38,078 nt of DNA from a virus. Positions within the stretch are counted from its first letter, which is position 1. Each line of letters starts with the position of its first letter. The stretch spans positions 1 through 38,078 of IMG/VR virus record IMGVR_UViG_3300020451_000471. One strand, written 5' to 3'. The position numbers and the translations under genes were made by a program. Of the stretch, positions 9,133 to 14,383 are shown piece after piece. The notes beneath the pieces were generated by a model. That model saw only the letters and a program-made list of their open reading frames with translations, searched no databases and was not told the DNA's origin.

Positions 9133-9411
9133 TTATTTTCGTTGTTTTGCCCTGTACTCATTTATTCTGATCTTGTTTTTTAATTCTTGTTCAATATCAA
9201 TATTGTAATGCTTTGCCATGTTTAAACAAACCAATATAACATCAGCTAACTCTTCAGGCAAATTACTCCATTCTTTAGATATTAAAGCCTCTTTGTTTAG
9301 CTCTTCTACCTCTTCATCTAGCTTATCTAAAAACTCAAAAAGCGTAGTAGTAGGAGTTATAAAACCCCTATCTACTATGCTTTGGTAATTGGTACTTATT
9401 ATATCTTGCAC
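9133..9411 (-). CDS. MazG-like nucleoside triphosphate pyrophosphohydrolase
   Basis: A 92-residue all-helical protein with the paired acidic motifs of the MazG/all-alpha NTP-PPase family: EEVEE around residues 33-37 and EELADV at 53-58 (E54, D57) for Mg2+ binding. It would hydrolyse (d)NTPs, or ppGpp-like nucleotides, to monophosphates and pyrophosphate. Phage MazG is usually linked to nucleotide pool or starvation-signal control, which is notable beside a nitrogen cassette. The start is GTG, overlapping the methyltransferase TAG stop by one base (TAGTG), with no nearby ATG alternative. Confidence 0.75.
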   Translation of the reverse strand: MQDIISTNYQSIVDRGFITPTTTLFEFLDKLDEEVEELNKEALISKEWSNLPEELADVILVCLNMAKHYNIDIEQELKNKIRINEYRAKQRK

Positions 9412-10430
9412 TAGAATAAACTTTTTTGCTCTGCTGCCTCTTCAAATCTATATTTAGCATCACCTAAGTTTATCTTAGCCTGTTTGAAGTAAGAATCTTT
9501 TAACTCTATTCCTATGGCTTTTCTACCTAATGAAACAGGACTATAAACTTCAGAACCTACGCCCATAAAAGGAGTAAAAACAACCTCCCCCTCATTAGAA
9601 TATAATTCTACTAACCTATCAATAACATCTAATTGTAATGGATGTACGTGCTTTTCATCATCCTCTTCTCTTGAATCTCTAAATGGTAAAACATTATCTA
9701 TACTAATATCATCCCATACACTAGATGCGTACCTTTGCCATATGTAGTGTGATAATTTATTTGTTTTAGGGTCTTTATGGTTTTTAAATTCTTTATTTAA
9801 ATATTCCCACAATTGAGCTGAATTTAAATCTGATTTATTAGCATTATTCCATGCCTGTAAAATATTAGGTAAAATAGGAGTTGTACCAAAATATTTTTTT
9901 AATCCTTCTGGATTCGTTACGGGTACTTCATTAATACCTTTTTTAGTAAATATTAAAACATAATCAGGCATAGCCGTAAAGCACTTTGTAGAATCTTCTA
10001 CTATAAACTTATGCATTAAACTTTGCACCATTGTACGCATACGAACCTTTAAAGGCTCTTTCCATATTGTAATACGATTACGATATTCAAAACCGTACTT
10101 TTGATGTATTTTTATTATCTCATGAGGAAAATCCCATAATCTACAAATATTATCAAAAACATCTGTACAGTGTACGGCTGTTATTCTACCATCTTTTGTA
10201 ACTCTTGCAACCTCTTTAACTAAAAATTCATATTGCTCTAAAAACTGCTCTTTACTTTCACAATTACTAAAATCATTATCACTACTTGAATAGTTATAAA
10301 GCCCAGCAAAAGGAGGAGAGTATATTGATAAGTCAATTGATTTATCCTCTAATGTTGGTAATACATACATACAATCTGAGTTATAGATTGCATAATCTTC
10401 TGTTACTAATTGGTCTTTTACGTTGTTCAT
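9411..10430 (-). CDS. N4-cytosine/N6-adenine DNA methyltransferase (beta class)
   Basis: A 339-residue methyltransferase with the catalytic motif IV first (SPPF, residues 38-41) and the SAM-binding motif I near the C-terminus (FTPFMGVGS followed by GRKAIGIELKDSYF), i.e. the permuted order of beta-class enzymes. SPP-F/Y favours N4-cytosine but does not exclude N6-adenine. It likely methylates phage DNA for protection from host restriction or marks it. It is 3 bases downstream of an SF2 helicase gene and overlaps MazG, so the three are co-expressed. No cognate nuclease is seen. Confidence 0.85.
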   Translation of the reverse strand: MNNVKDQLVTEDYAIYNSDCMYVLPTLEDKSIDLSIYSPPFAGLYNYSSSDNDFSNCESKEQFLEQYEFLVKEVARVTKDGRITAVHCTDVFDNICRLWDFPHEIIKIHQKYGFEYRNRITIWKEPLKVRMRTMVQSLMHKFIVEDSTKCFTAMPDYVLIFTKKGINEVPVTNPEGLKKYFGTTPILPNILQAWNNANKSDLNSAQLWEYLNKEFKNHKDPKTNKLSHYIWQRYASSVWDDISIDNVLPFRDSREEDDEKHVHPLQLDVIDRLVELYSNEGEVVFTPFMGVGSEVYSPVSLGRKAIGIELKDSYFKQAKINLGDAKYRFEEAAEQKSLF

Positions 10431-10433
10431 TTG

Positions 10434-11801
10434 TTATAAAAATTTAGGTTTAATAATTTTGTTATCAAATCGTTTAATAGTTTCTGAAAATACAGTATTT
10501 ACATTTTTAGTAAGGTTCTCATATAACTGTATTGCTTTTTCTGTTTTTTGTTGTAATGCTTCTAGTACTCTTGTTTGTCCATCAGATATAACTAAATCAA
10601 TAGTTACATTATTTTTTTGTCCAAATCTCCAAAACCTTCTAATAGCTTGATAATATTGCTCATAAGAATAAGTAGGAAAAAATACGCTATGATTACAATG
10701 CTGCCAATTTAAACCCATACCAGTCATCTTAGCCTTAGTAATTAATCTCTTAATTTTACCATTAGCAAAATCCATTAAAATACTTTCTTTTTTCTCAATA
10801 CTCATACTTCCAGTAATCTCAACAGCTTCAGAATCTAAACTAGCAATTAAAGAACTCTCTTCATTAAGATTTACCCAGTATACAGATGTTTTACCTTTTG
10901 CTAATTCAACAGCTTTTATACATCTATCTTTTAATGTTTGTTTTTGCTCGTGCCTAATTTCTCTAAATGACTTTGCAACAAAAGTAAACATCTTAATTTG
11001 TCCATCAACATCAACAGTAGACTTATTCTCTACTACGTGCTTATTTGTAATTAACTCAGGTAACTTGTATCTAGTATTATCATATCCTAAATCGCTAGGC
11101 ATTTTAACCATAATACTCCATTGATTAACCCAAGCAAAAAAACTTTTTTCTGCATGAGGTTTTAAGTAGTATTTTTCTCCTATATTTTTTGATTGTTTTG
11201 CTATACTAGCCATGTTGTTTTTAAAAAACTTAGTAAGCATATCCATGTAACCCATATAACCCAAAGCCTCTGAGCTTGTACCCAGTTCTATAAAATCGTT
11301 AGGAGATGGAGTAGCAGTAGATAAAAATCTAAAAGGTATTTTTTTAACAAAACTTGTTACTTGATTCTTAATTTTACCATCAAAGTTTTTAAGTATTGAA
11401 CTTTCATCAAGTATAACTCCTTGAAACTCTGTTTTATCAAAGTAGTGTAATCTCTCATAATTACATATTACAATTCTCTTAGTATGTTTACCATCTTTGG
11501 AGTATTCAATATCTGTTATACCTAACTTTTCAGCCTCTAAAATAAATTGAAAAGCAACCGCTAAAGGAGTTAATATTAATACTTTTCCGCCTGTATGATT
11601 AACAATGTTTTGAGCTATGGAAACTTGCATCAAGGTCTTACCTAATCCAGTATCTGCAAAGATTGCCATTCTACCTTTTTTAACAGCTTTTTCAATAATA
11701 GCTTTTTGAAAATCAAATGCTATATCTGGTATGTAATTAGCATCAAAACCGAAATTACCGATAGTATGCTTTTTGCTTTCTAAAAATTCTTGATAATTCA
11801 T
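10434..11801 (-). CDS. SF2 (SNF2/DEAD-like) helicase
   Basis: A 455-residue helicase. Walker A is DTGLGKT at residues 50-56, motif II is LDESS (131-135), motif III is STATPSPND (161-169), and the C-terminal RecA-like lobe has TKAKMTGMGLNW and YYQAIRRFWRFGQ (motif V and VI with arginine fingers). It would translocate on DNA using ATP. It is paired with the beta-class methyltransferase just downstream, a combination known in many phages, and may help replication, repair or the methyltransferase. It overlaps the upstream HTH gene by four bases. Confidence 0.88.
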   Translation of the reverse strand: MNYQEFLESKKHTIGNFGFDANYIPDIAFDFQKAIIEKAVKKGRMAIFADTGLGKTLMQVSIAQNIVNHTGGKVLILTPLAVAFQFILEAEKLGITDIEYSKDGKHTKRIVICNYERLHYFDKTEFQGVILDESSILKNFDGKIKNQVTSFVKKIPFRFLSTATPSPNDFIELGTSSEALGYMGYMDMLTKFFKNNMASIAKQSKNIGEKYYLKPHAEKSFFAWVNQWSIMVKMPSDLGYDNTRYKLPELITNKHVVENKSTVDVDGQIKMFTFVAKSFREIRHEQKQTLKDRCIKAVELAKGKTSVYWVNLNEESSLIASLDSEAVEITGSMSIEKKESILMDFANGKIKRLITKAKMTGMGLNWQHCNHSVFFPTYSYEQYYQAIRRFWRFGQKNNVTIDLVISDGQTRVLEALQQKTEKAIQLYENLTKNVNTVFSETIKRFDNKIIKPKFL

Positions 11802-12420: not shown

Positions 12421-13401
12421 TTAAAATGGTAAATCATCGTTTATTTCATCATTTCCGTAGCTCATTCTGCTCATACTTTGATGCTCTTTTGTTTTGTACA
12501 GGTCTAATTGCTCTGCTGGTTTTTCGTAGGTATGCTCTAATGGGTTTTCATTATCAATGAAGTATGCGCAATGATTATACCACCTCAACTCTAGTGGCTT
12601 ATCTCTGGGAGTTACACAACCTCCTGTGATAGTTTCTTTAACTTTTCTAACGTGTAATTCTCCTATATTCCATCTTTCTGGATGCTGTGTCATTCTGTGA
12701 ATAGTCCAAAAGTCATCTGCTCTATTTGCAAATTTTTGCCCTCCTTCGGTATCTGCTTTCTCAGGAGCTGCTAAATGGCCCTCATAAACATGGTCTTTAG
12801 GGTATCTGTTTCTAGCTGCTTGAGTAACTAGGTGAGCATTTACAAAAACGTTAGTATTGTTTTGCTCCCCAAAAATTCTAAGGTTAGCACAGATGTCATA
12901 ATCCTCTTGATGCTTGTTAGATGTTTCTACCATTAGCGAGTTAAAAGGGTCTACTAACAATCCATCATGATGCTTTTTACTTGCTATGTCCAGAATATCA
13001 TAAGCAGTGTATCTTTTTGTATTTGGGATAAACTCAAAGTAATCAGATATTTCATTTAGGGTATGCTGAAAACCTTTATCATCAATTGAGTAATCTTTGT
13101 CTAATCTGCGTCCTGTCCAAAAGTTAAAAATTTTAAACACTTGTGATCTAACAGTATTTTCTGAAGAGTAGATAAGATGTTTTTTACCATGTAGCTTACT
13201 CATGCAAACAAAGTACCAAAGGAGTACATCTGTTTTCCCTACGTTGTCATGCCCGTTAATCATGTTAAACTGCCCTTGCTTCCATTTGATATGATTATCA
13301 AAGGCTTGTACTCCTATGCCTAAACCTTGCTCAACTTTTCCTAATCGTATTTCATCTAAGCCCTGAAGCTCATGAAAAGGTTTTGTGTAATAATTTTCCA
13401 T
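12421..13401 (-). CDS. RecA/DnaB-like replication ATPase with SSB-type C-terminal tip
   Basis: A 326-residue ATPase. Walker A is GHDNVGKT at residues 50-57, the Walker B strand is GLLVDP (147-152), and a later VFVNAHLVTQAARN motif resembles the H3/sensor region of RecA/DnaB-type helicases. It likely acts as a replicative helicase or RepA-like unwinding ATPase. Its last residues, INDDLPF, match the acidic-hydrophobic tip of SSB proteins that docks replisome partners. It starts immediately after the initiator stop, suggesting an initiator-helicase pair. Confidence 0.75.
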   Translation of the reverse strand: MENYYTKPFHELQGLDEIRLGKVEQGLGIGVQAFDNHIKWKQGQFNMINGHDNVGKTDVLLWYFVCMSKLHGKKHLIYSSENTVRSQVFKIFNFWTGRRLDKDYSIDDKGFQHTLNEISDYFEFIPNTKRYTAYDILDIASKKHHDGLLVDPFNSLMVETSNKHQEDYDICANLRIFGEQNNTNVFVNAHLVTQAARNRYPKDHVYEGHLAAPEKADTEGGQKFANRADDFWTIHRMTQHPERWNIGELHVRKVKETITGGCVTPRDKPLELRWYNHCAYFIDNENPLEHTYEKPAEQLDLYKTKEHQSMSRMSYGNDEINDDLPF

Positions 13402-14118
13402 TTATTTACTGCCCTCTATCCAAGGAGCTGCTGTGTTGTTATTTGTTTGTTTTGGTTTGCTTGTAGAATTGCACCAATTCCAGAACCAAGATATAACATT
13501 TCCATAAGGCTTGTTAGTAAACTCTTCAGAATCTTTTTTTATTTCTAAAAACCTTTTTAGATGTTTTACTAACTCTTCTTTGTTTGTTTTATAAATTATT
13601 TCATTCTGCTGGTAGTTAGTTTCAGAAAACAGTTTTAAAATTTCTTTTATTTTATTTTCTTTTATTGTTATGTTATGTTCTGTTATCTTATGGTTTCGAT
13701 TAGCTTTTATTTCGGTTTCGTTTAGGTTTAATTTAGGTTTAATTTCGGTTTTTATTTTCTTTGGTCTACCCCCTTTTTTACCGTTTTCTTTTTTAGTATC
13801 CCATACTCCCATTACCCTACTCAAAGCTGGTGAGAAAAACCTGTTTTTATCCTCTACAAGTAATTCAAATTTAATACAATCCTTATACCATTCTAAGAAC
13901 TTATCAGTATCTGTACATCCTATTAAACCAGATAACATCCTTAAATCAAATTCATCAGCACTATGGCTATAACTTGCTGAATCTCTTAATATCTCTACAA
14001 CATCCCAATAGATACCTTTTCCCCAATGCCCATGTACATACCATATTTTTCTTAATTTCAATCCTCTACCAGCAGAACTATCATGCCTGAACCAGTAGCT
14101 ATCCTTTTTATTTGACAT
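13402..14118 (-). CDS. Phage replication initiator, DUF4373/Lin1244-like N-terminus
   Basis: A 238-residue protein. Residues about 5-105 (YWFRHDSSAGRGLKLRK, GKGIYWDVVEILRD, LSGLIGCTD) resemble the DUF4373/Lin1244-Lin1753 N-terminal domain of phage replisome organisers, a winged-helix DNA-binding fold. The middle is Lys/Asn-rich (KKGGRPKKIKTEIKPK) and is encoded by an array of 11-bp repeats. The C-terminal helical part (KEELVKHLKRFLEI) would contact a helicase or loader. Gene order (initiator then ATPase) and the internal repeats support an origin-binding role, as in other phages with the origin inside the initiator gene. Confidence 0.65.
   Translation of the reverse strand: MSNKKDSYWFRHDSSAGRGLKLRKIWYVHGHWGKGIYWDVVEILRDSASYSHSADEFDLRMLSGLIGCTDTDKFLEWYKDCIKFELLVEDKNRFFSPALSRVMGVWDTKKENGKKGGRPKKIKTEIKPKLNLNETEIKANRNHKITEHNITIKENKIKEILKLFSETNYQQNEIIYKTNKEELVKHLKRFLEIKKDSEEFTNKPYGNVISWFWNWCNSTSKPKQTNNNTAAPWIEGSK
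13688..13753. repeat. Six tandem 11-bp iterons, candidate replication origin
   Basis: On the plus strand six consecutive 11-mers run TTATGGTTTCG, ATTAGCTTTTA, TTTCGGTTTCG, TTTAGGTTTAA, TTTAGGTTTAA, TTTCGGTTTTT. Most units share the pattern TTtnGGTTTnn. Eleven is not a multiple of three, so the repeats are not due to protein repeats and must be kept at DNA level. A very A+T-rich stretch (about 13620-13687) lies beside them, like an unwinding region. The array lies inside the initiator gene. Confidence 0.6.
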
Positions 14119-14383
14119 TATTATTTAGTAGTTTTTTAATTTGTTCTAAATCATTAAGTAATACTTTATCATCAGCCTTTAACAAGCTGGTAATGTTTCT
14201 TTTATAAGCTCTTACTTTGCTTATAGTACAACCTAAATACTTAGAAATATTTGTTTGATTTGTTTTTAACTCTTCGTGTGCTAAGTAACAAAATAAATCC
14301 CTAGAATAATTATTATTTTTCAGATTATCATTAAAATACAGGAAGATTACAAATGTTAGAAAGTCTAAATCTTTACGCTGCAT
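14108..14383 (-). CDS. Small helical protein, possible helix-turn-helix
   Basis: A 91-residue protein with a putative HTH around residues 42-62 (NQTNISKYLGCTISKVRAYKR), framed by aromatic N-terminal helices (FVIFLYFNDNLKNN). It overlaps the DnaA-domain gene upstream by 19 bases and the initiator downstream by 11 bases. It is probably part of the replication-initiation group as a DNA-binding adaptor or regulator, an inference from context. Confidence 0.5.
   Translation of the reverse strand: MQRKDLDFLTFVIFLYFNDNLKNNNYSRDLFCYLAHEELKTNQTNISKYLGCTISKVRAYKRNITSLLKADDKVLLNDLEQIKKLLNNNVK

Follow-up and report, generated by a model that had tools for sequence, protein, structure and literature searches.

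A segment of the 38,078-nt viral stretch analysed here (the window) is very probably, at a rough probability of 0.86, a phage replication origin lying within the gene of its own initiator, with iterons to bind, a 5-bp array to melt and a helicase to recruit. In the proposed mechanism, the N-terminal domain of the initiator would bind six 11-bp iterons, all turned to the same side of the helix. This complex would melt an adjoining A+T-rich 5-bp array, and the C-terminal domain would recruit the phage helicase encoded directly downstream. The repeat DNA would also code for the disordered linker that joins the two domains, and this would leave its sequence open to selection for DNA recognition. 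Judged from the letters of the DNA, the segment combines the features of an in-gene iteron origin: repeats in the initiator coding sequence, an adjoining A+T-rich tract and a repeat type that tracks the N-terminal domain. An earlier note had read the repeats as a candidate origin; the analysis supports this interpretation, and origin activity itself is what we infer.

The gene at 13402–14118 (minus strand) encodes a protein of 238 residues, organized as an N-terminal domain, a GGRPKK motif, a linker coded by the repeats and a helical C-terminal domain. It looks like an initiator, given its PF14297 relatives, its match to a PHROG replication-initiation family and the helicase gene directly downstream. 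Against PF14297 (Lin1244_N) the window protein scores 23.4 bits for a cut-off of 25 bits, and its relatives L009 and L032 score 28.7 and 28.0; the match to phrog_2562 (replication initiation) has an E-value of 3e-5. In the AlphaFold model, the folded N-terminal domain (residues ~15–111) is confident, the linker (residues 114–148) has low confidence and the C-terminal domain is helical. Foldseek comparison of this model with the PDB gave weak matches, mostly to winged-helix regulators (best E=0.05), and fold matches among viruses were weak as well, several of them being Lin1244_N proteins; a sequence search of solved structures returned no relative. The N-terminal fold may be called winged-helix-like at best, and the repeat-coded linker between the domains is predicted to be disordered. 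The Phg_2220_C domain, present in L009 and L016, was absent from the window protein in the domain search. The basic GGRPKK motif and the codons just after it (13753–13779, minus strand) precede the iterons. GGRPxK occurs in most relatives, and proteins of the Lin1244_N type and of the DUF6291 type alike retain GGRPKK; the GRP within it is the core of AT-hook motifs, which is a resemblance only.

The helicase gene (12421–13401, minus strand, 326 residues) carries a Walker A-like GHDNVGKT and matches phrog_18375, DNA primase/helicase (E=6e-32). Its product is 88–95% conserved wherever the C-terminal type of the window protein occurs, and elsewhere 35–38% or not detected; it is presumed to be the client of that domain. 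Terminase and portal genes in the window confirm a tailed phage. A Bacteroidota host, as proposed earlier, is plausible: the helicase finds its nearest matches in Cellulophaga and Maribacter phages, and the same kind of array is present in a Riemerella phage. GC skew gives no origin signal, since its sign is negative in every 1-kb window of a genome that codes almost entirely on the minus strand. At 9411–11801, adjacent genes match phage DNA helicase (phrog_62, phrog_16) and DNA methyltransferase/helicase families (phrog_67, phrog_16), a possible split methyltransferase-helicase arrangement.

The six iterons occupy 13687–13752 on the minus strand, with the consensus NAAACC(T/G)AANN, and are putative binding sites for the N-terminal domain. 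From first to sixth they read AAAACCGAAAT (13752–13742), TAAACCTAAAT (13741–13731), TAAACCTAAAC (13730–13720), GAAACCGAAAT (13719–13709), AAAAGCTAATC (13708–13698) and GAAACCATAAG (13697–13687). The tandem units inside the initiator gene and the two exact copies that had been reported among them are both real: TRF finds period 11 at 13700–13751, and two units read exactly TTTAGGTTTAA on the plus strand. The span first assigned to the iterons, 13620–13753, holds for 13687–13752, the remainder being A+T-rich flank. Spaced about one helical turn apart, they would all point to the same side of the helix. The three copies of the phased AAACC pair, AAACCNAA-N3-AAACCNAA, that the window contains all fall in the array, for 0.01 expected from shuffling. 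Opposite the initiator, an open frame of 100 codons (13670–13972, plus strand) spans the iterons in antisense and shows no sign of being a genuine gene.

The A+T-rich flank that the earlier note placed beside the iterons is present and is itself periodic. About ten 5-bp units (ATAAG ATAAC AGAAC ATAAC ATAAC AATAA AAGAA and so on; minus strand) fill 13641–13691, overlapping the end of iteron 6, and form a putative DNA unwinding element. TRF finds period 5 over exactly this interval (about 10 copies), which is 84% A+T, and relatives have an array at the same position. On the coding strand the units are purine-rich, of the ATAAC/AGAAT kind in the window group and AAAGT/AAAGG in many others, and period 5 is found again among PF14297 initiators, with AAAGT and AATAG units, and in orf11 of the Lactococcus phage r1t. 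The array also accounts for odd peptide repeats, SKVKESKVKE and NRIEYNSIEYNSI among them, since 15 bp make three 5-mers and five codons.

Binding sites of this sort might serve mainly as an operator, for autoregulation or as a transcriptional roadblock, with the origin elsewhere. Plasmid iteron-binding Rep proteins often autoregulate, and the presence of binding sites is no proof of an origin. However, the array sits ~370 bp inside the initiator gene, an A+T-rich periodic stretch follows directly, as in ori-lambda, and the window holds no second phased array, which together make a primarily operator role improbable, and it was rejected. Moreover, the in-gene repeats of characterised phages act as origins: TP901-1/Tuc2009 (PMC8965321), SPP1 (PMC3485210) and lambda (PMC7466680).

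That the repeats are a mere low-complexity protein linker (K/N/E/T/P-rich) devoid of any DNA role is very unlikely. The segment does encode a predicted disordered linker, and relative L006 has an 11-residue peptide repeat. As 33 bp correspond to three units and 11 codons, the codon argument needed a test, and the earlier claim that a codon-driven repeat could not produce the period went too far as worded; what stands is that the period survives shuffles in which the protein is fixed. Only 0.33% of 1500 synonymous shuffles reached the period-11 score, 0.07% the period-22 score and 0.47% the period-5 score (p=0.0047), and none of 500 codon-order shuffles reached the period-11 score. Synonymous sites are nearly frozen: over codons 122–145 synonymous identity is 0.988 against 0.748 expected (0 of 20,000 resamples as high), and over codons 146–160, in the 5-bp array, 0.909 against 0.754. 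These values were computed on the window together with seven close relatives and without the near-identical L001, with amino-acid-matched columns elsewhere in the gene as expectation. The array-coded part of the protein is at the same time the least conserved in the gene (0.70 amino-acid identity), and selection, as the earlier note held, therefore acts on the DNA. The 11-bp unit is, in addition, read in three frames, and core and peptide vary without loss of the period. A pure protein repeat, already contradicted by the shuffles and the synonymous identity, was thus rejected.

The periods are shared across the family. PF14297 genes were taken from 395 genomes in the phylum to which Bacteroides neonati belongs and 299 in that of Lacticaseibacillus kribbianus (a first genome scan with alignment A1 gave no matches), and the survey set comprised 51 initiators from phages, Bacteroidota and Bacillota alongside 180 control ORFs, a period being significant when it scored above all 60 protein-preserving shuffles. 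Period 11 was found in 45% of the initiators, period 5 in 43%, period 10 in 41% and period 22 in 39%; the corresponding range in control ORFs was 1.7–2.8% (2.8% at period 11, 1.7% at period 5), and the three strongest control outliers turned out to be initiator-like genes. None of the 51 rose above all shuffles at periods 7, 9, 13, 14 or 19. The set is partly redundant, forming 24 clusters at 50% identity, and with one gene per cluster period 11 is seen in 29% and period 5 in 50%. The 11-mers precede the 5-bp array in 19 of the 22 genes showing both, the order also seen in the window. Surveys for DUF6291 (matches in 2 of 296 genomes, too few for statistics) and Phg_2220_C (3 of 299) were sparse.

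Conservation of the 11-bp period in relatives had been set beforehand as the refuting test, and every close relative retains it, as do distant ones with a changed core. Six units are retained in L001–L005 and L007, and nine are found in L006 and L008, where a 33-bp insert adds exactly three units in frame. In distant genes the core becomes AAAGC (L032–L034), AGCC (L031), CCACC (L019) or, in the eight units of Riemerella phage GRNRAP2, AACC. The L019 gene (2492–3502 of MT836332.1), a human-gut phage initiator, has CGCCACCCGAT-type units in 11-bp register with a differing core. No prior description was found in the literature for Lin1244, DUF4373 or iterons in Bacteroidetes phages, in a search that covered few subscription journals, so that this absence carries little weight.

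The repeat type is linked to the N-terminal domain, as a natural cassette swap demonstrates, and this swap is the decisive piece of the evidence. Up to codon 6, over 1.1 kb, the DNA of L013 and L002 is 95% identical, and it is 95% identical again over 5.3 kb, from nucleotide 377 of the gene in L013 and 450 in L002. Only the piece in between differs, from the N-terminal domain through the iterons as far as the A+T-rich stretch: L013 has there a DUF6291 domain and repeats of the AACCCAG..TGGGTT kind; the C-terminus and the downstream helicase gene are unchanged. L010–L014 likewise share with the window the upstream gene (41–80%), the C-terminus (77–83%) and the helicase (89–95%), but differ in having a DUF6291 N-terminal domain and repeats built from AACCCAG and TGGGTT. 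Conversely, L009 keeps the N-terminal domain and the 11-mers and has a different C-terminus (Phg_2220_C). From the L013/L002 swap and the other C-terminus of L009 it follows that the repeats accompany the N-terminal domain, as expected if this domain reads them. The fixed left edge of the swapped cassette is the upstream gene (14108–14383, minus strand, 91 residues), which overlaps the initiator start codon and is conserved across both cassette types. Within DUF6291-type cassettes (L010, 1319–1957; L013, 4812–5453), a repeated AACCCAGAAAACCCAGTGGGTT-like unit contains an inverted pair, and the repeat geometry differs in otherwise near-identical phages. The notion that the repeats are only a recombination hot spot driving domain shuffling at the linker, with no origin, draws on a domain swap that ends near them, but was rejected as highly improbable, given that the swapped piece brings its own, different repeats and that the junctions lie outside the iterons, on the right past them in common A+T-rich DNA and on the left at a start codon devoid of repeats. 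Initiator protein and start site thus seem to behave as one swappable unit.

More broadly, and as a tentative proposal that is rather less probable than not, the window may represent a widespread class of origins in Bacteroidota and Bacillota phages. In such a class, linker-coded 11-bp binding iterons of variable core would precede a 5-bp code, single-strand or unwinding, with its register read by an oligomer of initiator, loader or helicase, and the N-domain, iterons and A+T-rich segment would be inherited as an exchangeable cassette for origin specificity. In-gene origins are already a known kind, and the interest lies in the paired 11-bp and 5-bp arrays and in the cassette swap. Non-codon periods in the initiator linker offer a sequence-only route to the origins of uncultured phages, and point to a likely function and DNA target for what are currently annotated as Lin1244_N or DUF6291 proteins. 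Thanks to the natural swap, origin specificity can be tested directly, and with the 5-bp array the opening of phage origins becomes a well-defined question.

Among known systems, orf11 of r1t, a putative replisome organizer described as a homologue of that of Tuc2009 (PMC8965321), has four repeats with an 11-bp period (GGAACCGAAAT, GGAACCGAAAC, GGAACCAACTT, GGAACC), the first nearly the same as the window 11-mer. As in the window, the 11-mers are followed by a period-5 A+T-rich array (AGATA AGAAT AGATT) in the linker of a two-domain initiator, and none of 500 shuffles reached either the period-11 or the period-5 score. The r1t protein, however, has a different N-terminal domain without a Pfam match, a Phg_2220_C C-terminus and an adjoining DnaC-like loader gene, whereas the window has a Lin1244_N-like domain, a different C-terminus and its own helicase gene. 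XBA97212.1 of Riemerella phage GRNRAP2, a hypothetical protein, resembles the window in its eight period-11 units, mostly with an AAACC core, at the same linker position and in the helicase-like gene that comes next, but its N-terminus is of the DUF6291 type and its C-terminus Phg_2220_C.

TP901-1 ORF13, Tuc2009 Rep2009 and SPP1 G38P are, like the window protein, replisome organizers tied to origins or repeats in their own genes. TP901-1 ORF13 and Tuc2009 ORF16 bind direct repeats in their own genes, which serve as origins (PMC8965321), and SPP1 oriL is located in the gene of G38P (PMC3485210). TP901-1 differs from the window in its DnaB_2/HTH_36 domains, and its rep gene, an accepted in-gene origin used as positive control, gave no 11-bp or 5-bp array in the period test, so the 11+5 pattern does not hold for every such origin. 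Bacterial unwinding elements, too, have short repeats in A+T-rich DNA beside initiator sites, the DnaA-trio and the 13-mers (PMC10797057), but their units of three or 13 bases are read by DnaA or Rep, whereas the window unit has five bases. In lambda, ori-lambda is located in O, its iterons adjoin an A+T-rich tract and additional iterons make the O protein longer (PMC7466680). The window shares with lambda the iterons within the initiator gene and the A+T-rich tract after them, and the same scan recovered the lambda array, at period 20. Lambda differs in its annotated 18-bp iterons at 20–24-bp spacing, in that no 5-bp array was found, in its unrelated domains and in loading the helicase via P rather than having a phage helicase. 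The best reading of the window is an in-gene origin that would work like lambda O/ori-lambda, in an initiator of the Lin1244_N type.
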